From the IMG/VR virus record IMGVR_UViG_3300025098_002457, positions 1 through 22,943 of that record: a DNA stretch of 22,943 nucleotides; one strand, written 5' to 3'. Positions 156 through 21,374 of the stretch are shown piece after piece. The stretch's first letter is position 1. Every line of letters starts with the position of its first letter. The notes under the pieces were generated by a model. The model did not search any database and was not told where the DNA came from. It saw only the letters and a program-made list of their open reading frames with translations. This DNA is from a virus. A program made the translations under genes and the position numbers.

Positions 156-776
156 ATGAGCATATACTTACCAAAACACGATGCTGTGTTTATACACATA
201 CCTAAAACTGGCGGCACTAGCATTCTTAAATGGATGCAACAAAATTTTGAAGATCACGAAAAGCGTGGCCTAAAGCATCTTGACTATAGCAAGTACACAG
301 ATGAATTTGGAACTCCGGCACATCATTTTGCATGTGTTAGGAACCCGTATTCACGCTTACTAAGTTGGTTTCATTACATGGGAGAACAAGCACATTCTCG
401 ACTATATGCTGTACAACAAGGTACATTAGCTGAAGCACAGCCGTGGGACAAATATGCATGGCGGGCATACAAAAGAGGATTTAAAGTTTGGGTTCGAGAA
501 GCTGCTCATAATCCTACTGATAAAATTTGGTCTAGTTATATAATGCAAAATCAAGTAGATTGGTATAACAACGATACCGTTGACTTTGTTCTTAAGACTG
601 AAACATTAAATGAAGACTTTAAGCAAATACAGGACTGGCTAGGGTGTGATGCTCCGTTAGGACATCTCAATAAAAGTAATCACGGATATTATAGAGATCA
701 ATATGATTACGAAATGAAGTTAGTTGTGCAAAAATATTTTGAAAAAGACTTAGATACTTTTAAGTATACTTTTTAA
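156..776 (+). CDS. Sulfotransferase-like protein (Sulfotransfer_2 type), copy 1
   Basis: The 206-aa protein has the PAPS-dependent sulfotransferase layout. A 5'-phosphosulfate-binding loop HIPKTGG lies at residues 14-20, and a 3'-phosphate-binding segment VRNPYSR at residues 61-67. This family moves a sulfuryl group from PAPS to carbohydrate or other hydroxyl acceptors; the acceptor here is unknown. No signal peptide or membrane segment is visible. It is clearly paralogous to the protein at 10286-10864: both key motifs sit at identical residue numbers, and the C-termini are DTFKYTF and ETFKYKF. It lies among surface-glycan genes, so modification of host or virion glycan is a reasonable inference. 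The start follows a late promoter with virtually no leader. Its stop (774-776) abuts the stop of the convergent GT25 gene (777-779). Confidence 0.85.
   Translation: MSIYLPKHDAVFIHIPKTGGTSILKWMQQNFEDHEKRGLKHLDYSKYTDEFGTPAHHFACVRNPYSRLLSWFHYMGEQAHSRLYAVQQGTLAEAQPWDKYAWRAYKRGFKVWVREAAHNPTDKIWSSYIMQNQVDWYNNDTVDFVLKTETLNEDFKQIQDWLGCDAPLGHLNKSNHGYYRDQYDYEMKLVVQKYFEKDLDTFKYTF
754..774 (+). terminator. Weak AT-rich hairpin plus T-run at the end of sulfotransferase copy 1
   Basis: ATACTT (754-759) and AAGTAT (762-767) form a 6-bp inverted repeat with a 2-nt spacer, followed by ACTTTTT. It lies inside the last codons of the gene. The stem is almost all A-T, so termination activity is doubtful. Confidence 0.25.
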
Positions 777-1475
777 TTAATTTTCTTTTAGATTGCGTGT
801 TAAACTTTCTGACCTTATATTGTTTCCTATTGCATAAAACGGATGCAGTCTTGCTAAACTAGGAACAGTTGTTCGAGTATCTACAACCCAATCGCCAATT
901 TGTTGATCTGCTGTTACATGGCCATTTTGTCTAATATGTTTTAGTATCTTTCTTGCGCCTGCTGGTTTAATTATATATGCATATGCGCCTTTAAAATAAT
1001 TGCCAGTGCCAATTTTAACAGGATTTTTATTTTGTAAGTTTGTATATTTTTCTATTGATAGGTTTAAGGTTGATTCTTCTTCTAATACTTTGTCATAAGA
1101 ACTATTATAAGGATTACATCTATCTAATTTTAATACATCTTCAAATGTGTCTAATATATTTTCTGGCAAGGGTTTTAACATGTAACCGTCATGTTCTAAA
1201 ACAACAAAGGGCGTATTAGTCCGTGCGCATTTTAGCCATAGATAATAATGACTAAAGAAGCATCCTAATACACCTAGTCTGCCTTTTTTCATTTTTCGTT
1301 TTAATTTAATGCCTGTTTTTTCATAGTGAAATTTTGCATCATTGCCGTTAATTGCGTCAAAGTAAACTGGAGATAATCCGTGTACGATAGCTTGGTCAAA
1401 GCAATCTTTTGCCATCTTACACGAATGTTCATTTTCTTTAAGACGTATGATATAAGCAGGAATTGATTTTGTCAT
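777..1475 (-). CDS. Glycosyltransferase family 25-like protein
   Basis: The 232-aa protein starts PAYIIRLKENEHS and contains GCFFSHYYLW (71-80), VVLEHD (91-96) and GAYAYIIKPAGARKIL (around 163-178). These correspond to the blocks of GT25 / LPS-biosynthesis glycosyltransferases; the usual acidic EDD is EHD here. The family transfers sugars (often galactose) from UDP-sugars onto LPS or protein acceptors; donor and acceptor are not deducible. Its ATG overlaps the FkbM stop by 4 nt (ATGA at 1472-1475), so translation is probably coupled. It is the last gene of the minus-strand run that begins at gp32, and it ends stop-to-stop against the plus-strand sulfotransferase. I am fairly sure of the family. 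Confidence 0.75.
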   Translation of the reverse strand: MTKSIPAYIIRLKENEHSCKMAKDCFDQAIVHGLSPVYFDAINGNDAKFHYEKTGIKLKRKMKKGRLGVLGCFFSHYYLWLKCARTNTPFVVLEHDGYMLKPLPENILDTFEDVLKLDRCNPYNSSYDKVLEEESTLNLSIEKYTNLQNKNPVKIGTGNYFKGAYAYIIKPAGARKILKHIRQNGHVTADQQIGDWVVDTRTTVPSLARLHPFYAIGNNIRSESLTRNLKEN

Positions 1476-2092
1476 GCAGGAATATAAATCCTTTCTTCTT
1501 CAATATTATGCTCAAACTTGTAACCGTGCTGTTTTAATAATGATTCTAATTGTTCCAATGTCCATCCATAGCGTACAGCATTTTTTTCAAAATATTCTAC
1601 TACAACAACTGGCTTACATCTTCGTATGGTTTGTATTGCACCTTGTAATGCAAATAATTCAAACCCTTCAATATCTAAATGTATTAGATTACATACATTT
1701 AATCCTAAGTCATCAATCTGCAAGGTTGGAATAGATCCAGCTTTGCTTACATGAGTTTTACCTCTGTTAGCTTCTTTTATTTTTAAATTTACTAATTTGC
1801 GATCTTTACCGATGCAACTTTGATATTTAAATACATTTGGTTCAGTAACATTTTGATTTAAACAGTAAAAGTTCAAAGGCTCAGGTTCAAACGTATATAC
1901 ATGTTGAAATTGTTCAGCATACATTTTAGTATATACACCCATGTTTCCGCCAGCTTGAACACAAACTTTTTTATTAGGTACAAACTTGCAAATTTGCTCT
2001 GGCAAATCAAAATGTGTCATCATGTAATTATAACATCTTGTATCGGTCTTTGGCCAGATATAATTACCTCTTGTTTCGGTAAGGTGCATCAT
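1472..2092 (-). CDS. FkbM-family SAM-dependent methyltransferase
   Basis: The 206-aa protein shows a Rossmann methyltransferase motif I (VQAGGNMGVYT, residues 45-55), the acidic post-motif FEPEP (68-72), and LIHLDIEGFE (136-145), which is diagnostic of the FkbM family. These enzymes O-methylate sugars or other metabolites, and in phages they are usually found with glycan-modifying genes. The acceptor is unknown. The start codon ATG (2092) overlaps the TGA of the uvsY-like gene in an ATGA junction, and the downstream GT25 gene overlaps it the same way. It therefore seems to be co-transcribed with the recombination genes. A second ATG follows immediately (MM-HLTE), so the first residue is uncertain by one codon. 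Confidence 0.85.
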   Translation of the reverse strand: MMHLTETRGNYIWPKTDTRCYNYMMTHFDLPEQICKFVPNKKVCVQAGGNMGVYTKMYAEQFQHVYTFEPEPLNFYCLNQNVTEPNVFKYQSCIGKDRKLVNLKIKEANRGKTHVSKAGSIPTLQIDDLGLNVCNLIHLDIEGFELFALQGAIQTIRRCKPVVVVEYFEKNAVRYGWTLEQLESLLKQHGYKFEHNIEEERIYIPA

Positions 2093-10279: not shown

Positions 10280-10286
10280 TATTTAT
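10280..10286 (-). promoter_or_regulatory. T4-late-like -10 element (ATAAATA) for gp16
   Basis: The minus strand reads TGATAAATAAAACTAGC, about 27 nt before ATG 10253. It touches the TGA stop of sulfotransferase copy 2. Confidence 0.5.
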
Positions 10287-10864
10287 CAGAATTTGTACTT
10301 AAATGTTTCAATATCGTTTTTAAACTTATTTGCTACTATTTGTTTGGTATTATCGTTATAATATTCTCTATAATCTTTATTTCTAGACGAGGTATTTAAG
10401 TATGGTAACTCTTGTTTAATATTAAATTTATCTTTTAGAAGTTGTATGTCGTGGTTTATATTTTCTAATTTCATAATATAGGATACACCTATAGTCCTAT
10501 GATGTTGATCTTTTAATTGTGTTTTTTCTATAAAGTATTCAAAGCCTTTTTCAAAGTTTTCTAGAACTTGTTGATTGTATTCTAAACTAAATTTACCTTT
10601 TTCTCTAGGGTTTTTAATCCTGCGTAACGCTCTATCTCTAGTAAAGAAATACCAGCTTACACACCAGTCCCAAGGATTTCGTACAACTGCAAAACTAAAG
10701 TCAAACCTTCCGTACTTTGCTTCAAGTGCCTGTAATGTGTGATGCTTAGTAGCTTTTGTTACTTGGCTAGATGTGTTATCTAATAACCATTTTTGTATAC
10801 TGCTGCCGCCTGTTTTAGGAATATGTACAAAGATACTATTGTGAGGACTTATAATTACAGCCAT
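10286..10864 (-). CDS. Sulfotransferase-like protein (Sulfotransfer_2 type), copy 2
   Basis: The 192-aa protein has HIPKTGG at residues 14-20 and VRNPWDW at 61-67, the same positions as in the paralogue at 156-776. It ends ETFKYKF. The PAPS-binding loop and 3'-phosphate segment appear intact, so activity is plausible; the acceptor is unknown. Unlike copy 1, it is embedded in the late morphogenesis operon: its ATG overlaps the gp4 stop (TAATG), and gp16 follows after a late promoter. Late expression would fit modification of virion glycans or of the host surface near lysis, but that is inference. No signal peptide is visible. Confidence 0.85.
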   Translation of the reverse strand: MAVIISPHNSIFVHIPKTGGSSIQKWLLDNTSSQVTKATKHHTLQALEAKYGRFDFSFAVVRNPWDWCVSWYFFTRDRALRRIKNPREKGKFSLEYNQQVLENFEKGFEYFIEKTQLKDQHHRTIGVSYIMKLENINHDIQLLKDKFNIKQELPYLNTSSRNKDYREYYNDNTKQIVANKFKNDIETFKYKF

Positions 10865-11301
10865 TATCTTCTTTTGCCGTTATGAAAAATATCATTTTCA
10901 GTAACAATTCTAAAAAATATTCCCTGTTGTTTACACCATGCTCTTGCTGCTTCCCACTTGGCTTGATTGATAATCCAATGAGCTTGATTAGCTCGACTCT
11001 TGCCTGTCTTTTCTTTTAATGATTGGTTTTCTGGTTTTACTTCAATAAGTTCAACTTTACTTTTTCCAGTCTTACCTGCATATGCAATAAAAAAGTCTGG
11101 TACATATATTGTTTGTTTTCCAGTAAGAGGATGTCGATACGGTATTTTTACTGCTTCACTTGCCCATTGCGTTACACTAGGATGTTCGTCACAGAATCTC
11201 ATAAATGCAAACTCCCAACTACTTCGATATGTTGGAGTTTTATTACCCATATATTTTTCAGGATTTTTTAATTTAAATTTACCTTGAGCATACTTAGGCA
11301 T
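10864..11301 (-). CDS. 4: Head completion protein (gp4-like), PD-(D/E)XK-type fold
   Basis: The 145-aa protein matches the T4 gp4 pattern: GKFKLKNPEKYMGN, then YRSSWEFAFMRFCD (25-38), then QWASEAVKIPYRHP and VPDFFIAY, then ELIEVKP. D69 in VPDF, with E87 and K89 in EVK, reproduces the PD-(D/E)XK nuclease signature, and E30 in RSSWE may complete the site, as in TnsA-like proteins. In T4, gp4 acts with gp50/gp65 at head completion after packaging. It begins 5 nt after the subtilase gene and overlaps the sulfotransferase start by one nucleotide, in a tight late operon. Confidence 0.82.
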   Translation of the reverse strand: MPKYAQGKFKLKNPEKYMGNKTPTYRSSWEFAFMRFCDEHPSVTQWASEAVKIPYRHPLTGKQTIYVPDFFIAYAGKTGKSKVELIEVKPENQSLKEKTGKSRANQAHWIINQAKWEAARAWCKQQGIFFRIVTENDIFHNGKRR

Positions 11302-11305
11302 ATCA

Positions 11306-13207
11306 TTATTCTTCTGATGAAATTATAATTTGACCTACCATACTGCCGTGGAATTCACAGATGTAATAGTAAGTACCAGGTGCAACACCTGTTGTGTCCC
11401 AAGTACACACACCGGATTCGAATCCATTTCTAATAACACCGCTGGTTACAGTTGAACCTGTACCTGTTACAGCAGCAGTCTTAATCCAGAACGGATGTCC
11501 GTTTACATTTAGGGTAAACTCTAAGATGTTTCCTTGATAAACTTCTATACTAGGATCGTTTTGGGCATTAAAAGATCCATTAATGTCACTTCCTGTTAAT
11601 ACATAATTAGACGAACCAGATGATGTTACACTGATACTGTATGTAGTTTGTGGTACTGCTTGTGTAGTTATAGTATATGGATTTTGTTGACCATATTTAG
11701 AATACATCATTCTATTGTATGATCCCATAATACTAGTAGTAAAAGCTCTATAATCACTATCATTATTTGCCGTTTCGTTTATTACTGATTTAGAATCAGC
11801 AATCATAATTTCTGTTAATTGCGCAGGTGTCAAATTAGGACGAGATTCTAAGTATAATGCTAATACGCCTGCAACTTGCGGTGCTGCCATAGATGTTCCG
11901 CTTATACTCATTATATTAAAATTTGTATCTTGTGGATAATCTAATGCTGTAAATTTATTAGTATTATAATTTATACTACATGTACTTTGTATGTCTGTTC
12001 CGGGTGCCCAAAAGCTAACAGCAGGTCCTTTTTTACTAGATCCAGCTGTCTTATCAACACTAGAAGTAACTGCAGAATCAATATTACCTACGTTAAATGC
12101 AGCAGCACTATAAGGAGAACCGGGTCTATGGTAAAATCTTGTGCTTCCATTAAACACAGCCGTGTTATCATAATCAGCGCCTGCAGGAAGATCTGCTTTG
12201 TAATAATCGTTGCCAGCTGCTATACATACATGGATGCCGTCGTTAATCATGTCTTCAACTTCAGCATCAACGACCGCAACCTGTGACGGTATCTTACGAA
12301 AGTCGTCGTTACCATTGCTGCCATTAAATTTTGAAACAATACCGTAATCATCCCAAAGCTCTGTATCTGTTTGGGCTGCAAATGTCCAAGGTGTTCCTCT
12401 ATATGTGCCGCCTGTTGGATCGTCTGTGTACGATGTGCTATAACCCCAACTCATATTTACAACAGTAGGTCTACCATTTGTTTTTGCGTTGTGCCATAAA
12501 CGTATTGTATCAAACGAAGTTGATATTGGGATGCCATTTCCAGGATCATTAGTTCCTTCTAATCCATTCAATTTTTGTGAATATATGTGTGCGTCTTTTG
12601 CCCAACCATAAGTTCTACCAGCTGCTATGCCTGCGCAATGAGTGCCGTGTCCATCGTAATCATCATAAAAACTAGCGTCTTGTGTTCCTGATATACCACT
12701 TGCTTGATACCAATCTATTACTTGAAATCTAGATATGCCGTTAGCATCATTCCATTCTGGATGATTTACATCTACGCCGCTATCCTGTATTACAATATCT
12801 ACACCTTTGCCAGTTAACGAATATGTATAATCGCCTGCTGTAGTAGTCGAAGAAGCATATACATTAGTTGGCTCAATACAACGCCGTAATCCCCAATTTA
12901 CATTTACTGTAGCACTGTTGTCACCTCTATAAAATATATTATTTTGACTAGCATTTAATCCTATTTGGATATCGTCTCTATTTTCGGGAGGTTCTTCTAC
13001 TGCACGTACTCTTGAATCTAATCGTAGTGCTTCGGCTTCTTCATCTGTAAGCATAAAGTGTGTTTGTATTTTTGATCCTGGACGAGCATTAGCAATGTTA
13101 ACACTTCTACTAGGTATAGGTCCTTCTCCTGAGCTTGCAGTAATTTCTGCTTCTAGATCAGGTAAATGTTCTCTTGACACTGCTATTACTGAATACTCTT
13201 TTTCCAT
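11306..13207 (-). CDS. Subtilisin-like (S8) serine protease with C-terminal cupredoxin-like domain
   Basis: The 633-aa protein has three parts. Residues about 1-75 resemble a protease propeptide (DEEAEALRLDSRVRAVEEP). Residues about 130-480 form an S8 catalytic domain with D142 (QDSGVD), H187 (DGHGTHCAG), oxyanion N333 (CIAAGND) and S439 (SGTSMAAP), all intact. Residues about 520-633 resemble a cupredoxin with a type-1 copper ligand set H571, C617, H620 and M623 (C-x2-H-x2-M, as in amicyanin). No signal peptide is visible. The gene lies between a fibre-like gene and gp4 in a late operon, 11 nt after the previous stop, with an AAGG-type Shine-Dalgarno. It is not the T4 prohead protease gp21 type. 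A virion-associated role, or processing of fibre proteins, is inferred; copper binding is untested. Confidence 0.92.
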   Translation of the reverse strand: MEKEYSVIAVSREHLPDLEAEITASSGEGPIPSRSVNIANARPGSKIQTHFMLTDEEAEALRLDSRVRAVEEPPENRDDIQIGLNASQNNIFYRGDNSATVNVNWGLRRCIEPTNVYASSTTTAGDYTYSLTGKGVDIVIQDSGVDVNHPEWNDANGISRFQVIDWYQASGISGTQDASFYDDYDGHGTHCAGIAAGRTYGWAKDAHIYSQKLNGLEGTNDPGNGIPISTSFDTIRLWHNAKTNGRPTVVNMSWGYSTSYTDDPTGGTYRGTPWTFAAQTDTELWDDYGIVSKFNGSNGNDDFRKIPSQVAVVDAEVEDMINDGIHVCIAAGNDYYKADLPAGADYDNTAVFNGSTRFYHRPGSPYSAAAFNVGNIDSAVTSSVDKTAGSSKKGPAVSFWAPGTDIQSTCSINYNTNKFTALDYPQDTNFNIMSISGTSMAAPQVAGVLALYLESRPNLTPAQLTEIMIADSKSVINETANNDSDYRAFTTSIMGSYNRMMYSKYGQQNPYTITTQAVPQTTYSISVTSSGSSNYVLTGSDINGSFNAQNDPSIEVYQGNILEFTLNVNGHPFWIKTAAVTGTGSTVTSGVIRNGFESGVCTWDTTGVAPGTYYYICEFHGSMVGQIIISSEE

Positions 13208-13218
13208 TCAATTCTACC

Positions 13219-14763
13219 TTAATATAGATTTACCCAAATAGCGCCGTCCCAAAATACAGGGTAAGGTCTACTATTAGCTGAGTTTGCGGGGTCCCAACTG
13301 ACGTTATCAGCTACTGCAAATGTTCCTGGCTCAGGACTTGTTGGTGCAGAACTTAATGGTGTTAATTTAAACACGCTATCAAAGTTTGCTGTGCCATTAA
13401 TGTTTACATCATCTGTTGCTGTAATGTTTACACTTGCTGCACTATCTAGTGATAAATTGCCAGTACCGGCACTTGTAAAGTTACTAATAGTAACTGTTGC
13501 ATCAGTAAAGTCAACATCGCCGTTAGCTGTAATATCATTAATTGTTAAACTGCTGTCTGTGCCATCTGTACCCACGTTAAGTATTGTATGCGAGCCTGTT
13601 GGTGTAGTACTATTACCAGCTGCTGTACCTGCCAACGTACCAGTAAACGTAGTACTAGAACTTGAAACATCAACAACTACTGTGCCGTCTCTTTTAATAA
13701 CATCACCAGCAAATCTTGCCTCAGTTACTGCATCACCCGAATAAAGTATAACTGTGTTTGATGGATCTGCTAAGTCGTATACAATACCACTTGCATTTGC
13801 ATTTGCTGATGCTGTTTGGTCTGCTACCCATGCATAGTCCGAACCGTCCCAACTTAGTATTTGCCCACTTGAAGCACCACTTGTATTTAAGTGAGTATCT
13901 ACATTACCATCAGTGTAAGATGACCCGCCGCCTCCGCCTAGTAGTCCGTCGTTGTCCGAAAGCTCATTAACATCTGCTGGTATAGTAGGTTTATTTGTTA
14001 GATCAGTATAACTTCCACTAAATGAACTGCCGCCGATATCTGCGTTATTTGCAAGTTGTACCCAACTACCACTGTGTGCAAAATATGCAGCACCTGTTCC
14101 GTGTACATGTGCAAACATACCATGATATGCTGAAGCATCTGGTAAGCCAGCTTCTGTAGAATACACGTTACCAAACAATACTTTATTGCCGCCCATGTCT
14201 AAATCGGAGCCTGTGACAGCACTAATAGCGTCTGAATCTGAATATGATGCGCCTGAGCCTGCTTGATCTACCCATTCATAATCAGTACCGTCCCAGCTTA
14301 ATATTTGATTAGAAGTTGCTGAACTTTGATTTAAATGAGTATCTACGCCAGTATCTACTGCACCAGATGCAAGTTCTCTAGACGTAACTACATCTTCAAA
14401 AATCATATTTTCTGTGATAGCATTAGCTGTTCCAGCCTGAATATAAGAAGATAAATCTACAGTATTGCTTTCATCTGCTGGTCCCCATTCTGTACCAGAC
14501 CATTGTAGTACTTGTCCAATAGTAGCACCAGTATCTGAACAATTTCCTAAGTCCTGTAAATTAACAGGAATAGTTGGCTTGTTAGTTAAAAAGTTATAAT
14601 TGCCACCAAATAAATCTGGTTTGTTTTGTATACTGTCCCATTGTACCGGAGTTGATGCAAGAGTTGTTACACTTATAACTCTAGTGTTTAAGTCTATAAA
14701 ATTTCCGTCCATCTCTGCATATGTTAACGGATCTCCTTTATCTGCTCTTAAAATTATTGCCAT
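13219..14763 (-). CDS. Fibre-like virion structural protein with internal repeats
   Basis: The 514-aa protein is rich in Gly, Ser, Thr and Asp. It starts MAIILRADKGDPLTYAEMDGNF, a common start of marine phage fibre or structural proteins. Internal repeats include LTNKPTIP (59-66 and 265-272) and a WDG module: GQVLQWSGTEW (83-93), NQILSWDGTDYEW (152-164) and GQILSWDGSDYAW (300-312). The C-terminal part (about 380-514) looks like a beta-structured region, ending PVFWDGAIWVNLY. It probably forms part of a tail fibre or virion decoration. AGGAG precedes ATG 14763, which overlaps the preceding stop (TAATG). The subtilase gene follows immediately. Confidence 0.75.
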   Translation of the reverse strand: MAIILRADKGDPLTYAEMDGNFIDLNTRVISVTTLASTPVQWDSIQNKPDLFGGNYNFLTNKPTIPVNLQDLGNCSDTGATIGQVLQWSGTEWGPADESNTVDLSSYIQAGTANAITENMIFEDVVTSRELASGAVDTGVDTHLNQSSATSNQILSWDGTDYEWVDQAGSGASYSDSDAISAVTGSDLDMGGNKVLFGNVYSTEAGLPDASAYHGMFAHVHGTGAAYFAHSGSWVQLANNADIGGSSFSGSYTDLTNKPTIPADVNELSDNDGLLGGGGGSSYTDGNVDTHLNTSGASSGQILSWDGSDYAWVADQTASANANASGIVYDLADPSNTVILYSGDAVTEARFAGDVIKRDGTVVVDVSSSSTTFTGTLAGTAAGNSTTPTGSHTILNVGTDGTDSSLTINDITANGDVDFTDATVTISNFTSAGTGNLSLDSAASVNITATDDVNINGTANFDSVFKLTPLSSAPTSPEPGTFAVADNVSWDPANSANSRPYPVFWDGAIWVNLY

Positions 14764-15224: not shown

Positions 15225-16367
15225 TTAAGTTCCTGTTTGTGTATTTGGTAAGTTATTTGCTTCTTGTGCTTGTCCAATTTTTGCAGATTTAGCTGCGGCA
15301 CTTGAATTATTATTTTTACTAGTTGCTTGTGTAGTTTCTGTTCCCTTGCCGGAAGTCTTACCAAAAAATGTGCCAGTTATGCCGCCTGGGCTTGGATTCT
15401 GTCCTGCACTTACAACTGCATCAGTTAATAATCCAAAGCCTTCTCGTTTAATACTATCTAACGATAAATCTTTTGCGTTTCTAATAGTGTTTGCTGCACC
15501 AAGTAATGTGCCTAAGCCAACATTACCACTTGTAATATCACCTAGCACACTTGACGCTCCGTCTAGTATGCCGCCGCCGCCAAATAAGTTTGCTACGCCG
15601 CCACCTTCAACGCTTAGTGGACTTGGAGTTTTGTCATAATGTGAAGTAGCAAATGTTGCCGGTTCATCTTCGCCTACTGCGCCATCAGAGTATAATACTG
15701 ATTCATAATTTAGTGACATTTTATTTTCTACAACACCTTGGCCGTCTGTTTGATCCATAGTGTCGTGTCCCCATGATGTAATTATAGGATTAACTAAAGT
15801 GTATTCTTGATACTGATGTCTACTAAACTGATATAGTTTTATATTCTTAAAAAATGGTTCGACTTTATCATTGTCTAAACCAAATCGATATGTTCTTCCA
15901 TTTGCTTCTTTGTATGTACTACGAGGATCGTATGTTGCACTAATGTCCGATATATTTCCATCTCTATAATAATATCTATAGTATGCTTGCATTAACGAGT
16001 TAGTAACACCAACATTATCATCGTGCATAATGATAGAAACCGGACTATAATCTAATCTAGTTTGTATATTCTTTTTTCTGTTGTATTGATTCTTTGTATC
16101 AACAGCAGCAGTATATTGAGGCAAGTCTACTTGCTTACACAACATATTCATTTCTGCTCTATGTCGCTGTGTCATTTTTGGAAATGCACGTAATACTGAA
16201 TCTGTAAAATTAAAATTTATAAAATATAAAAATTTTGTTTTTGGAGCAAGACGAAATGCACTATCAACATACAGTCTTTGAGCATGTTGGAAATCACCAA
16301 CAATCCCTTTTGGGTTAGTTGCGCCGCTGAAAAAATTATCTAAGAATCCATTTAATTTATTTGCCAT
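15225..16367 (-). CDS. Tail-tube-like / baseplate tube initiator (gp54-like) protein
   Basis: The first about 250 residues of this 380-aa protein have a tube-protein character, with alternating beta segments. Examples are YSPVSIIMHDDNVGVTNSLM and the final strand ENKMSLNYESVLYSDGAV, the type of strand seen in gp19/gp54 proteins. The C-terminal third (about 255-380) is Gly/Ser/Ala-rich and low in complexity. T4 gp54 also pairs a tube-like domain with a Ser/Gly-rich tail and caps the baseplate to start tube polymerisation. Direct downstream linkage to gp19 supports this, but I have no alignment. The ATG at 16367 lacks a Shine-Dalgarno and lies exactly 5 nt after ATAAATA, so a leaderless transcript is likely. 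It heads the operon that runs to 10286. Confidence 0.55.
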   Translation of the reverse strand: MANKLNGFLDNFFSGATNPKGIVGDFQHAQRLYVDSAFRLAPKTKFLYFINFNFTDSVLRAFPKMTQRHRAEMNMLCKQVDLPQYTAAVDTKNQYNRKKNIQTRLDYSPVSIIMHDDNVGVTNSLMQAYYRYYYRDGNISDISATYDPRSTYKEANGRTYRFGLDNDKVEPFFKNIKLYQFSRHQYQEYTLVNPIITSWGHDTMDQTDGQGVVENKMSLNYESVLYSDGAVGEDEPATFATSHYDKTPSPLSVEGGGVANLFGGGGILDGASSVLGDITSGNVGLGTLLGAANTIRNAKDLSLDSIKREGFGLLTDAVVSAGQNPSPGGITGTFFGKTSGKGTETTQATSKNNNSSAAAKSAKIGQAQEANNLPNTQTGT

Positions 16368-16458: not shown

Positions 16459-17091
16459 TTAGCCTGCGCCACCGCCGCCAGTTACTAGAGTATTAACTGT
16501 ACGTCCAACTGCTGTACCAATGCCAGTACCTGTTGGTGATTGTACTGCGTTATCATATCTAATTGATAATGCAATAGTTGCTGGATCATTTGTAGCATAG
16601 TTTAATGTGTTGTAGTTTGCATTAGTTAAGAAGCAGCCGTAGCACTCCCAAGTTTCTAATACACCTACTTCGTTAGCGCCGTTGCCGCCGTCTAACATTT
16701 CGATACGTGTTACAAATTTGTAATCAATGCCTGAAGCAGCACTTGACTGTTCAAAGAAATCAAATTGTTTCTGCAATTGCTCGCCAACTTGCTTAGTAAC
16801 GTTGTTACTTACATCGTCTCTTACATTAAGTGTAATTGGTTCCCAAGTATGCTTACCAGCAAGGTAGCTTCTTGAGTTGTAAACGTCTAAAGTAATTTCT
16901 TCAAATGTTAAGTTTGGACGAGTTACGTCTACTACTTGTTTTGTTAGTTCTGTTGTGTTACCACTTACTCCGAAGTTTTCTAATGTTACCCTAAAGCGAT
17001 ATTGTAACTTAGGCATTAATAAGCCTTGGTTACTTGCGCTAGAGTCACTAGCTAGTGGTACTGTAATTTTTGATAATGTTGAGATTGCCAT
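16459..17091 (-). CDS. 19: Tail tube protein (gp19-like)
   Basis: The 210-aa protein matches the contractile-tail tube family: LLMPKLQYRFRVTLENFG near the N-terminus, VVDVTRPNLTFEEITLDVYN in the middle, WEPITLNVRDDV, and the late strands LETWECYGCFLTNANYN and TIALSIRYDNAVQ. It polymerises into the inner tube through which DNA passes, inside the sheath encoded just upstream. Its length is slightly above T4 gp19 (163 aa). The gene is insulated by a terminator on each side and has its own late promoter and an AGGAG Shine-Dalgarno, consistent with high monocistronic expression of a major structural protein. Confidence 0.93.
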   Translation of the reverse strand: MAISTLSKITVPLASDSSASNQGLLMPKLQYRFRVTLENFGVSGNTTELTKQVVDVTRPNLTFEEITLDVYNSRSYLAGKHTWEPITLNVRDDVSNNVTKQVGEQLQKQFDFFEQSSAASGIDYKFVTRIEMLDGGNGANEVGVLETWECYGCFLTNANYNTLNYATNDPATIALSIRYDNAVQSPTGTGIGTAVGRTVNTLVTGGGGAG

Positions 17092-17160: not shown

Positions 17161-20100
17161 TTAAAGTCCTGCAATTTCTCCTGTATTTTTAAGTCTTAGC
17201 GGAATGTAAATAAACTCTACTGCCTTAACTGGTTCAATTGCTATGTCTAAGTATAGCTCATTACGGTCTATTCTTCCTGGTGTGTTGTTTGACTCATCAC
17301 AAACAACTAGGAAATCGTAAAGTGCTCTTTGTCCTACTAGCTCTAAGCATAGGCTTTCTGCTGCTGCTTTAATTTCATCTCTAGTAATCTTGTCATTTGG
17401 TTCAAACAAGTAAGGCTTAGCAAGTTTGTTAAGCTGACTACGTAAGTAAACAACTAAACGTGCTACGTTTACTCTGTCTAGTGAAGAAGCATTTCTTGCA
17501 CGAGTCTTTTGACCAAATACAACTAAGCCTGCGCCATTTAGTGCTGTAATTGGGTTAACTGAGTTACTATACAATGTATCACGTTGTCCTTCATTAAGTG
17601 CAATACTTATGAATTCGCCCTCGTCACTAATATAACCTGTTGAAGTTGCGTTTGTAACTCCGCCACGTCTTGTTCCTGCTGGAGCAAACCATGGATAAGA
17701 AACTTGATCACTTAGTGCAATTGTACGCAATGCCATATGACTTGCAGGAACAACAACATTGTTACCTACGTTATCACTTGTAAAGCCTGCTGGATAATAA
17801 ACACCCATGTACTCATCTCTGCTAACTAAACCGTCATCGTTATCTTCAACTGCTAAACGAACGTTAGTTCCCCACTCATTTAGTGAAGTTGCGTCTGGCT
17901 TCAATCTCATTGGACTGTCACCTACAATAAATGCACTTAGGCCTCTATCATAGTTTAGACCTACCATTTCACCAATTAGTTCTGGATAACCTGGTGTAGC
18001 CATTACATTAAACAATCTTGTTTCGTCATCTCTTAATGCATCATTGCCAACAACCATTGCTTGTAAGCTAGTAATAACGATTTGACGTTGTGCTTTACGA
18101 CCAAAGCTACCTGAGCCATCTGCTTGGTTAGCTGATGCTGTTACCCAACGATGTGGATAGTAGTTTGCTTGGCTTTCACCTGTTATAGCATTGTCAGTAT
18201 TTAAATCAACATAGTTACGTACAAAACGCTTAACGTTAAATCCGCTTCTGCGTAAGTTCCATAACAACATACCTCTTGGATATAATGCTGGGCTTGGGCA
18301 ATCGCCGTCAACATGATCAGAAGCTAATAGTTCTGCAATATCTCCTGCTTCGCCGCTGTTTGCGCCTGCTGTGTTATAACGTGCATCTGCAAATAGTACG
18401 CCGTTTTCAGTTGTTTGATCTGAACTATCAAGTAAGATCCACTTCAATTGAATTGCGTCCCAACGATAAATTGTTGGATACTCTTCAATATTGGCTGTGC
18501 TTATCCATAAGTCGCCTTCTACTAAATCAGAACCATCTGATTGTTTTGTTGGTTCAGATGCAGTAACAAGTGGTCCTGCTGGGTCAGCGTTTGGATATAC
18601 GTTATTGTAACCTTTCCAGTCAGCGCCGTTATGTACCATAATATCAACTTCGTCAACAACTGAGTTATACCATACTTGGCCATCACTTGCTAAACTTGAA
18701 GGAGCATCGTCGTCTGCTGTAAGAACTGCTTTTTTCCAGTTACTTGCAGTAAACGTAAGTGTAGCATCTGATCCTGAAGTTCCAACTGCAATATAAAGAT
18801 TAGGTGTACCTGATCCATCAGCATAATCATATGCTGCAAATCCTGCATTACTAAATGCTGCTGAAGTATCACTAATTTCAATATCTCCGCCCTTAGTATG
18901 CTCAATTACTATTTTGCCAGCACTAACACTTGCAACAACATGTAATAAGCCTGCTGTGTTAATTGCGCCTGCAAATGTATCTGCATCGCCTGATGTTCCG
19001 TCACATGTAAATGATACTGTAACTGGTGCACCAAAGTTAGACTGTCCTGGAACAGTTTCAGCTATTGTAAATGTTTCTGCACCTACTGGAAGACCTGTAA
19101 TAACTGGACTTTCAATTTTTGTAGTACCTGTATTTGATCTTTCATATACTGTAAATGATGCTCTAGCTGGTGTTGTACCTTGCGCATTTGATAACGCATA
19201 TGATTCGCCTGCTGATAAGTTAGTTCCGCCGCCTGCTCTGTCTAAACCAAACAATGCATCTGCATTTGATTTGTAAAGTGGTAACTCAACTGCATCAAAT
19301 AATGCTGTTTCGCTGTTCCAACGCTTGTATCTCCAACGAGCACCTTGATTTGGTTCAGTAGTCTTAACCCATACAGATCCTGTAGGACGTGGTGTGCCGT
19401 CATTCATTTTAAATTCTGGTACACTTGTATGTGGACTAACTTGTAGCATTGGGCTATTTGCTGTTGTTCCAGCAAGGCCTAATAGTGTAAGTAAGTCGCC
19501 GCCTGCGCCTGCGCCTGCTTGAAGTGTAATTGTTTCGTCGCTTGTAGCATCGTTAAAGATATGTACTTTGCCGTCAATTATTTCAAGTCTGCAACCTGTG
19601 TTAGCATTTGCTAACTGTACATTGGCTGCTGAAATTGTTGCTGCTAATGTTGCATCTTCAGCAATTGTATAATCTACTGCACCTACTGACAAAGTAAATG
19701 TAGCTGATCCGCCAACAAAGTTGGATGATTGTGCTGTTGAACTTGCAACTACTGCTGGCCAGCTGTCAACCCAATCACTGCTTCCTACTTCAACCCACTC
19801 GCCTAAATAGTTTTTATAAAAAACTTTAATAACGTTTGTTGTTGCTTTGATCGCATATTCGCCTTTTTGTCCTACTGACGCCTTAGGAGATCCGCTTAGT
19901 GCAATTTTTGTTGTGTCAGTAATAACAATAGGAGTCTTAACTTGGAATGTTTGTCCGTCTACTGTTGCAGCCGATGCACCGTTCCATTCAAATATGCCGT
20001 ATGCTGTATTCTGTGTATCTAACCAGTTTGTTCCGTCTGCTGGATCTGCACTTGGTGCTTCAGCTGTTGGCTGTAATTGACCTAAGTCAATATCTGCTCT

Positions 20101-20430
20101 AGTTACGTATACTGCGTTGCTTACTCCTAAAAGTGAGTATGCTGCTTGCAGTCCGTACTCGTTAAGTTCTCCGCCGTGTACTGGATTGTTGTTTGCGTCA
20201 GTGTAAAAAATTGGATCGCCGAACTTTTCTGCAAGGTCTCTCTGCGATGTTAAAAGTACAGGTTTTTCAGCGTTAGCTTTTAATGTTGCGTCTGCCGTTC
20301 CTGAGCCACTACCGTTTGTTTTATTTTCTGCGGTAGCAACGAATATCATTGGTACAGTTCCAGGTTCTGCCGGAGTGTAAAAACTCTCGTCAATTACCTT
20401 AACCTCTACGCCTGGTGATGTTAATGCCAT
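17161..20430 (-). CDS. 18: Tail sheath protein (gp18-like), enlarged
   Basis: The N-terminus MALTSPGVEVKVIDESFYTP and the C-terminal region (GLNYDRGLSAFIVGDSPMRL ... NPITALNGAGLVVFGQKTRA ... RVNVARLVVYLRSQLNKLAK ... AVEFIYIPLRLKNTGEIAGL) are those of contractile sheath proteins. The protein is 1089 aa against about 659 aa for T4 gp18. The extra length lies in the middle (about residues 120-650), a variable Thr/Ser/Ala/Gly-rich region that probably forms outward-facing domains. It contains GSVWVKTTEPNQGARWRYKR and a later GDLWISTANIEEYPTIYRWD, which look like related strands. It has a late CTAAATA element, a TAGGAGA Shine-Dalgarno before ATG 20430, and a terminator after its stop. Confidence 0.95.
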   Translation of the reverse strand: MALTSPGVEVKVIDESFYTPAEPGTVPMIFVATAENKTNGSGSGTADATLKANAEKPVLLTSQRDLAEKFGDPIFYTDANNNPVHGGELNEYGLQAAYSLLGVSNAVYVTRADIDLGQLQPTAEAPSADPADGTNWLDTQNTAYGIFEWNGASAATVDGQTFQVKTPIVITDTTKIALSGSPKASVGQKGEYAIKATTNVIKVFYKNYLGEWVEVGSSDWVDSWPAVVASSTAQSSNFVGGSATFTLSVGAVDYTIAEDATLAATISAANVQLANANTGCRLEIIDGKVHIFNDATSDETITLQAGAGAGGDLLTLLGLAGTTANSPMLQVSPHTSVPEFKMNDGTPRPTGSVWVKTTEPNQGARWRYKRWNSETALFDAVELPLYKSNADALFGLDRAGGGTNLSAGESYALSNAQGTTPARASFTVYERSNTGTTKIESPVITGLPVGAETFTIAETVPGQSNFGAPVTVSFTCDGTSGDADTFAGAINTAGLLHVVASVSAGKIVIEHTKGGDIEISDTSAAFSNAGFAAYDYADGSGTPNLYIAVGTSGSDATLTFTASNWKKAVLTADDDAPSSLASDGQVWYNSVVDEVDIMVHNGADWKGYNNVYPNADPAGPLVTASEPTKQSDGSDLVEGDLWISTANIEEYPTIYRWDAIQLKWILLDSSDQTTENGVLFADARYNTAGANSGEAGDIAELLASDHVDGDCPSPALYPRGMLLWNLRRSGFNVKRFVRNYVDLNTDNAITGESQANYYPHRWVTASANQADGSGSFGRKAQRQIVITSLQAMVVGNDALRDDETRLFNVMATPGYPELIGEMVGLNYDRGLSAFIVGDSPMRLKPDATSLNEWGTNVRLAVEDNDDGLVSRDEYMGVYYPAGFTSDNVGNNVVVPASHMALRTIALSDQVSYPWFAPAGTRRGGVTNATSTGYISDEGEFISIALNEGQRDTLYSNSVNPITALNGAGLVVFGQKTRARNASSLDRVNVARLVVYLRSQLNKLAKPYLFEPNDKITRDEIKAAAESLCLELVGQRALYDFLVVCDESNNTPGRIDRNELYLDIAIEPVKAVEFIYIPLRLKNTGEIAGL

Positions 20431-20542: not shown

Positions 20543-20884
20543 ATGCGTCCATTATGTAAAAATTGTAAGAAAAAGCCAGCAGCAATTAACTATTACAAAG
20601 ATAATAAAACGTTTTATAGATCAAAATGTGAAAGTTGTGCTAGGTATAACGGGATATCAAAAGGCGTACCTCGTTGGGCGAGACACGGCTACGAAAAAAA
20701 ATCACATTGTGAAAAGTGTGGATTCAAAAGTAATTACTCTGAGCAGTTTGATGTTTATCATATAGACGGTGACTTAACTAACTGTCGAGCAAATAATTTA
20801 AAAACAATTTGTGCTAACTGTCAACGAATAATTCAGAAAGAAGGTAATCGCTGGAGGCAGGGAGACTTAGTCCCCGATTTTTAA
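20543..20884 (+). CDS. HNH endonuclease, free-standing, Cys-rich
   Basis: The 113-aa protein carries four CxxC pairs (C5/C8, C29/C32, C56/C59, C90/C93), suggesting zinc sites. The HNH core is VYHIDGDLTNCRANNLKTIC, with H73, D75, N80 and N84/N85 as likely catalytic or structural residues. It nicks or cuts double-stranded DNA; free-standing HNH genes of this kind are common in marine T4-like phages, where they can act as homing endonucleases, but target and role here are unknown. It is on the strand opposite its neighbours, and its last 71 nt overlap the convergent kinase gene. There is no Shine-Dalgarno, and a late-type element lies 5 nt before the ATG. Confidence 0.85.
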   Translation: MRPLCKNCKKKPAAINYYKDNKTFYRSKCESCARYNGISKGVPRWARHGYEKKSHCEKCGFKSNYSEQFDVYHIDGDLTNCRANNLKTICANCQRIIQKEGNRWRQGDLVPDF

Positions 20885-21374
20885 ATATTGTTCTAATCAA
20901 TATATCAACATTCTTTTTTAACCGTTGCAAGTCGCCATTATTGTCAATAGTGTAATCACACATCCATTGCTCAATACTCATTGAACTAGGACTCTCACTA
21001 GGTAAGTGATCTCCTCTATCTACCCAAATAGCATAATCAAATATTTCTTCATTCTGCATTGCAAAGAATTCACGTTTATTACGCAGGCCGCAATAGATAT
21101 CATGTTCGTCAAATAAGTCACGCCCTAAACGTGCTAAGTCGTCTTTACAATAATTATGTATCATATTATACCATTCAGTACGATGATTGTGCCTATCTGC
21201 ATAGCACTCTTCCTCATTTGCATATCCGTACTGATCTTTTAAGTCGTTGAAAATAAACAACTCTGAACAAAATTTACTTGATGATTGGAATGTATAACCG
21301 TATGTTTCTAATAGTTCACATACAGTATCTTTGCCATGACGGCCGTGGCCAACGACTAATAGTTTAGGTAACAC
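20814..21374 (-). CDS. P-loop kinase, dNMP kinase-like (T4 gp1 type)
   Basis: The 186-aa protein has the P-loop VVGHGRHGKDT (residues 7-17), with GKDT in place of GK[ST], as in deoxynucleoside monophosphate kinases and dephospho-CoA-kinase-like proteins. A middle stretch LARLGRDLFDEHD and FDYAIWVDRGDH fit a nucleotide-kinase fold. T4 gp1 phosphorylates dNMPs for phage DNA synthesis; substrate here is unproven. The start is a GTG at 21374 preceded by AAGGAG with a 6-nt gap; the ATG just upstream is out of frame. It has a consensus sigma70 promoter of its own, unlike the late genes around it. The 3' end overlaps the convergent HNH gene by 71 nt, so its last about 23 codons are shared with antisense HNH sequence. 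Confidence 0.7.
   Translation of the reverse strand: MLPKLLVVGHGRHGKDTVCELLETYGYTFQSSSKFCSELFIFNDLKDQYGYANEEECYADRHNHRTEWYNMIHNYCKDDLARLGRDLFDEHDIYCGLRNKREFFAMQNEEIFDYAIWVDRGDHLPSESPSSMSIEQWMCDYTIDNNGDLQRLKKNVDILIRTIFKNRGLSLPASSDYLLSELFVDS

Follow-up and report, generated by a model that had tools for sequence, protein, structure and literature searches.

The gene at 11306-13207 encodes an S8 subtilase whose predicted active site is intact, and its C-terminal domain is a predicted cupredoxin fold with a complete set of type-1 copper ligands. In cyanomyoviruses, S8 proteases are already known and annotated as a family (PHROG 9158), and their genes mostly lie beside fibre or baseplate genes. 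The identity of the C-terminal module common to the protease, gp9 and fibres, a cupredoxin whose type-1 copper ligands are conserved, appears to be unreported; the open literature searched contained no account of cupredoxins in phage tails, most subscription journals lying outside this coverage. As the ligands are almost never lost, sequence comparison suggests that phage tails carry a hitherto unreported class of copper-binding modules.

Genomic setting

The window, the whole stretch of DNA that was analysed, is a 22.9-kb IMG/VR virus fragment with T4-type genes, from a marine T4-like phage. Cellular contamination was ruled out by the viral record and by its terminase (large subunit), tail-tube, gp4-like and UvsY-like neighbours. 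The 633-aa protease gene is an open reading frame of exactly 11306-13207 on the minus strand, and the plus strand over this stretch is full of stops. The first-pass annotation had placed the gene and eight catalytic and ligand residues at positions that all proved right, the strand being minus. It had also located the gene between a fibre-like gene and gp4, and PHROG matches to both neighbours agreed with this. The features are listed below.

11306-13207, minus strand: complete gene, 633 aa (propeptide, S8 subtilase and cupredoxin)
12971-13207, minus strand: residues 1-79, I9-type propeptide, a putative intramolecular chaperone and inhibitor (AF2, Foldseek, weak Pfam I9, co-occurrence)
11786-12904, minus strand: residues 102-474, S8 catalytic domain (Pfam, PDB sequence matches, active-site conservation, Foldseek)
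12782-12784, 12647-12649, 12209-12211 and 11891-11893, minus strand: codons of D142, H187, N333 and S439, respectively
11636-11785, minus strand: residues 475-524, linker (model confidence lowest at residues 509-517)
11318-11635, minus strand: residues about 525-630, predicted cupredoxin (ligand alignment, family profile, AF2, Foldseek)
11495-11497, 11357-11359, 11348-11350 and 11339-11341, minus strand: codons of H571, C617, H620 and M623, respectively (loop C-x2-H-x2-M)
13219-14763, minus strand: upstream neighbour, tail-fibre-like, 514 aa (PHROG 9729, tail fibre; 11 bp gap to the protease gene)
10864-11301, minus strand: downstream neighbour, gp4-like head completion or head closure (PHROG 218)

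Fibres homologous to the upstream neighbour were also found upstream of the protease gene in relatives, and the tail-fibre-like protein is a likely partner of the protease in the tail. The gp4-like neighbour is shared by the closest clade only and is thus context only. The terminase was about 50% identical to its closest matches, those of Pseudomonas PA5oct-like, Sinorhizobium Phosso and Agrobacterium Atu_ph07 phages. Because its terminase is nearest to that of these T4-related jumbo phages, the window phage is, by this gene, not a typical cyanophage. Compared with the closest fusion-bearing relatives (L004 and L006), the protease gene gave dN/dS values of 0.08-0.18 for the comparisons that allowed an estimate, synonymous sites being almost saturated.

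Several other genes of the window were recorded. Two sulfotransferase-like genes (PHROG 3347) are located at 156-776 (plus strand) and 10286-10864 (minus strand), the latter lying within the structural genes, flanked by gp4 and a terminase small-subunit-like gene. The stretch 777-2092 (minus strand) adjoins the former and contains two genes, the first glycosyltransferase-like by weak matches and the second encoding a methyltransferase (PHROG 8156); together, these genes possibly form a set for the modification of surface sugars. A second tail-tube-like gene (15225-16367, minus strand, 380 aa, PHROG 13438) adjoins the ordinary gp19-like gene at 16459-17091. The presumed sheath protein (17161-20430, minus strand) has 1089 aa, its identity as gp18 being based on position only; T4 gp18 has 659 aa, and the extra length suggests large inserted domains. 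A small open reading frame with paired Cys motifs (20543-20884, plus strand), HNH-endonuclease-like by eye, overlaps the end of 20814-21374 (minus strand).

Protease domain and propeptide

The Pfam Peptidase_S8 profile matched residues 133-472 (E 3e-29), and the complete catalytic set claimed in the first-pass annotation was confirmed: the Asp/His/Ser triad (D142, H187, S439) and the oxyanion residue N333 all lie in S8 motifs. Sequence matches in the PDB were to proteinase K, aqualysin and keratinase types. The AF2 model was predicted to adopt a subtilisin fold, with a target-normalised TM score of about 0.8 to subtilases in Foldseek. Across 62 distinct sequences the active site was conserved at D (62/62), H (61/62), N (58/58) and S (57/57). 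The single exception, H to Y, stems from a truncated open reading frame, and all complete relatives keep the catalytic residues, by which a pseudo-enzyme was ruled out.

A subtilase had been regarded as unexpected in such a phage, an expectation that did not hold. By tblastn, relatives were found in 50 GenBank phage records, mostly of cyanophages; several are annotated as 'subtilisin-like serine protease' or 'peptidase' and others as hypothetical. A scan of IMG/VR with six search patterns, one of them derived from the cupredoxin, yielded 79 loci. One 50.8-kb contig (3300021373_001563) carries two protease-cupredoxin paralogues about 30 kb apart, which share 75% and 57% identity with the window protein (L006 and L015). 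In the 'peptidase S8' of S-BM3 (L203, 2125-6309), a cupredoxin is apparently inserted within the S8 domain. The GTSMA serine motif was not found within the stretch of this protein that was read, and from its sequence the protein may be inactive.

An N-terminal propeptide had been absent from the earlier description. In the AF2 model, residues 1-79 follow the order strand-helix-strand-strand-helix-strand, and the Foldseek alignment to unprocessed pro-subtilisin E (3whi) was longer than those to mature enzymes. Pfam I9 matched 9 of 22 family members weakly (best E 0.0087) and gave no match to the window protein itself. The pro-segment profile had a weak PDB match to two subtilase propeptides and was present in 134 of the 141 S8 open reading frames of the loci. 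No signal peptide was evident on the window protease. The modelled I9-like fold preceding the S8 domain indicates that the protease would be made as a zymogen, i.e., an inactive precursor.

Cupredoxin module and its distribution

Structure prediction of the C-terminal domain alone gave a cupredoxin fold at a pLDDT of 96.9 (AlphaFold), in agreement with the cupredoxin-like domain noted at first pass. The refuting outcome named there, a missing fold or displaced ligands, did not arise. Within the full-length model the same domain was less confident (about 60-85), and the alignment was shallower for this region. Foldseek matched it to rusticyanin (1.3e-5), plastocyanin, nitrite reductase and laccase domains with a probability of 1.00, at identities of 12-20%. 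Pfam PF00127 (Copper-bind) scored the window domain at E 0.028 and 15.3 bits, below the curated cut-off of 21.2, and matched 15 of 29 relatives at E<=0.1 (best 6e-8). A direct single-sequence search against the PDB (phmmer) was only borderline (plastocyanin/auracyanin, E 0.05-0.2), and a profile of 29 family copies was therefore used. This profile matched plastocyanin (4e-6) and amicyanin (4e-4), and the H, C, H and M ligands aligned with those of plastocyanin. The C-x2-H-x2-M spacing of the window domain is that of amicyanin.

These 29 sequences mostly share 20-50% identity with the window domain, and in their alignment no columns but G40, H52, Y96, C98, H101 and M104 were invariant. Four of these six are the predicted copper ligands, for which the chance would be roughly 3 in a million if ligand columns were random. 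The complete set (HCHM) was found in 163 of 181 distinct cupredoxin copies, most of the others being partial matches. A chance ligand pattern was ruled out by these two results. The invariance of the four ligands speaks for a role of copper, or of some metal at least, in the module. Real ligand substitutions are few and were seen in giant proteins with multiple copies, L150 and L157 among them. These two tail-type proteins (2243+ and 3263 aa) combine S8-like segments with several cupredoxin copies each, at least one of which has replaced ligands.

A survey of the domain pair in other phages, as proposed earlier, showed a cupredoxin in the same open reading frame or an adjacent gene in 44 of 63 distinct protease loci (11 in the same frame and 32-33 in a directly adjacent gene, one locus with both being counted once). 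In one further locus the cupredoxin lies at another place within or past the neighbouring genes; 19 loci showed none over the stretch covered, although some of these stretches are truncated. These proportions may be somewhat biased upwards, because a cupredoxin-derived pattern was among the six used in the search. Genes adjacent to the protease matched the tail-fibre and baseplate PHROGs 9729, 677 and 708. The HCHM cupredoxin was also present at the end of gp9 in S-RIM8, P-RSM4 and MA01, in the proximal long-tail-fibre protein of S-SCSM1, and in proteins of the podovirus P-SCSP2 and the actinobacterial phage DSL-LC01. Among the cellular sequences retrieved (within L166-L193), the closest cupredoxins were from marine Bacteroidota, some with a type IX secretion sorting tail (L177 and L184); none of the cellular cupredoxin open reading frames in this set contained an S8 domain.

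The C-terminal modules of the homologues alternate between none, cupredoxin, Ig-like repeats and laminin-G lectins; examples are the laminin-G lectins of S-SCSM1, the Ig-like domains of Atu_ph07, and the Ig-like repeats plus cupredoxin of L158. When the fusion label was mapped on a tree of 73 S8 domains, 8 changes were needed, at least 4 of them being forced by well-supported branches; as this was a quick tree with some long branches, the count is approximate. Judged from these sequences, the cupredoxin is a mobile module that was gained or lost at least four times. One relative, L007, is 72% identical to the window protein and ends at residue 513, after the protease, without a cupredoxin. Judged from this relative, the domain is not needed for catalysis, and together with the four to eight label changes it ruled out such a requirement. 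The copper dependence suggested at first pass is thus disfavoured as far as proteolysis is concerned, many other relatives lacking the domain as well.

Proposed role and relation to known systems

We lean towards a tail- or fibre-associated virion subtilase that activates itself and carries an exchangeable attachment or host-contact module able to bind copper. The protease would be made as a zymogen without an evident signal peptide, its folding would be aided by the I9-like propeptide, and the latter would then be cut and released. The mature enzyme would stay on the tail or baseplate, probably beside the fibre encoded just upstream. Its most likely task there would be the trimming, as the phage adsorbs, of proteins that are sheath-like or on the host surface, or of its own fibre. 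The cupredoxin would serve as an exchangeable beta-sandwich, common to fibre and baseplate (gp9) neighbours, that attaches or displays the enzyme and carries the conserved type-1 copper site. For the window protease, we infer propeptide processing, copper loading and the substrate.

The virion-borne location envisaged earlier gains support by homology. GenBank notes mark two S-SCSM1 gene products as '(virion protein)', namely gene 228 (SSCSM1_228, S8 plus laminin-G lectins) and gene 231 (a fibre with cupredoxin). According to the S-SCSM1 paper, CsCl-purified virions were analysed by mass spectrometry and 45 phage proteins were detected (PMC9602691). SSCSM1_228 is distant from the window protease (about 28%) and has lectins in place of the cupredoxin, and the virion location in the window phage is by analogy with this homologue's GenBank note. 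The accessible portions of the S-CREM1, S-CREM2 and S-SZBM1 proteomes do not list an S8 protein. Virion proteomics of Atu_ph07 was dropped as support, as the main-text passages covered do not name this protease and the gene numbering did not correspond, gp276 being a polymerase in that paper.

The main rival for the role of the protease is fibre maturation, in which the enzyme would cut the adjoining fibre or baseplate protein during assembly, the common cupredoxin would dock it to this substrate, and carriage in the virion would be incidental. In most loci fibre genes lie directly beside the protease, and the genes on both flanks often encode cupredoxins. However, the neighbouring genes vary widely in size and kind, the downstream ones including the unrelated gp4, and some homologues bear lectin and Ig modules, which suggests that they face outwards; we therefore consider maturation rather unlikely. 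A soluble enzyme that is released at lysis, as the first-pass annotation had also offered, or that acts on intracellular host proteins would accord with the fact that subtilases are often soluble, but the location among tail genes, the fibre-type modules and the homologue marked as a virion protein make this improbable.

For the cupredoxin, a partly independent question whose likelihoods are to be weighed separately, the main rival is that the beta-sandwich has a purely structural or adhesive function and that its copper ligands are not loaded in the virion. The module is mobile and occurs alongside Ig, lectin and glycine-rich modules, the enzyme family also exists without it, and virions are assembled in the cytoplasm, where free copper is scarce. 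Useless ligands would be expected to decay, yet all four, including the methionine, are fixed while most positions turn over, and a metal-free adhesive role is accordingly only a tentative option. As a comparably speculative extension of the copper-binding tail module, many phages of marine and freshwater origin might display true type-1 copper centres on tail fibres, baseplate gp9 and tail proteases; besides T4-like cyanophages and other T4-related phages, these would include an actinobacterial phage and one or more T7-like podoviruses. The bound copper might then play a part when the virion meets its host, as a trigger that works by redox chemistry or copper sensing, or by engaging copper-binding surface proteins of the host; a parallel would be the iron that has been proposed for the tail tips of some phages.

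Tail proteases and virion metal sites bear on the passage of phages through the protein coats of marine bacteria. If true, an invariant copper site on a swappable tail module, present in several groups of phages, would give virions a new means of sensing or using a metal, and virions with type-1 copper centres would be copper-bearing particles. The module can be tested directly, as it is carried by the cultured cyanophages S-SCSM1, S-H9-1 and S-RIM8.

Among known systems, the cyanomyovirus S8 proteases (PHROG 9158; S-H9-1 QPB08157, the S-CREM1 peptidase, P-SSM2 PSSM2_297 and S-CAM4) share with the window protein the S8 domain, mostly the propeptide, and the location among tail genes. Those of S-H9-1 and S-CAM4 likewise end in a cupredoxin. 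However, these proteases are only about 30-35% identical to the window protein, and the window terminase is not closest to those of cyanophages. Pro-subtilisin E and proteinase K-like subtilases (S8A) have the same arrangement of propeptide and catalytic domain, aqualysin, keratinase and proteinase K being the closest types, whereas the window protease has no evident signal peptide, a longer catalytic domain and a phage tail context. The predicted cupredoxin corresponds to rusticyanin, plastocyanin and amicyanin in fold and in the order of the four ligands, but it is part of a tail-cluster protein and not a free electron carrier, and its copper site is predicted. Finally, cyanophage gp9, the baseplate wedge-tail fibre connector (PHROG 677), ends in the same C-terminal cupredoxin, with HCHM in the three members checked, and, unlike the window protein, has no protease domain.
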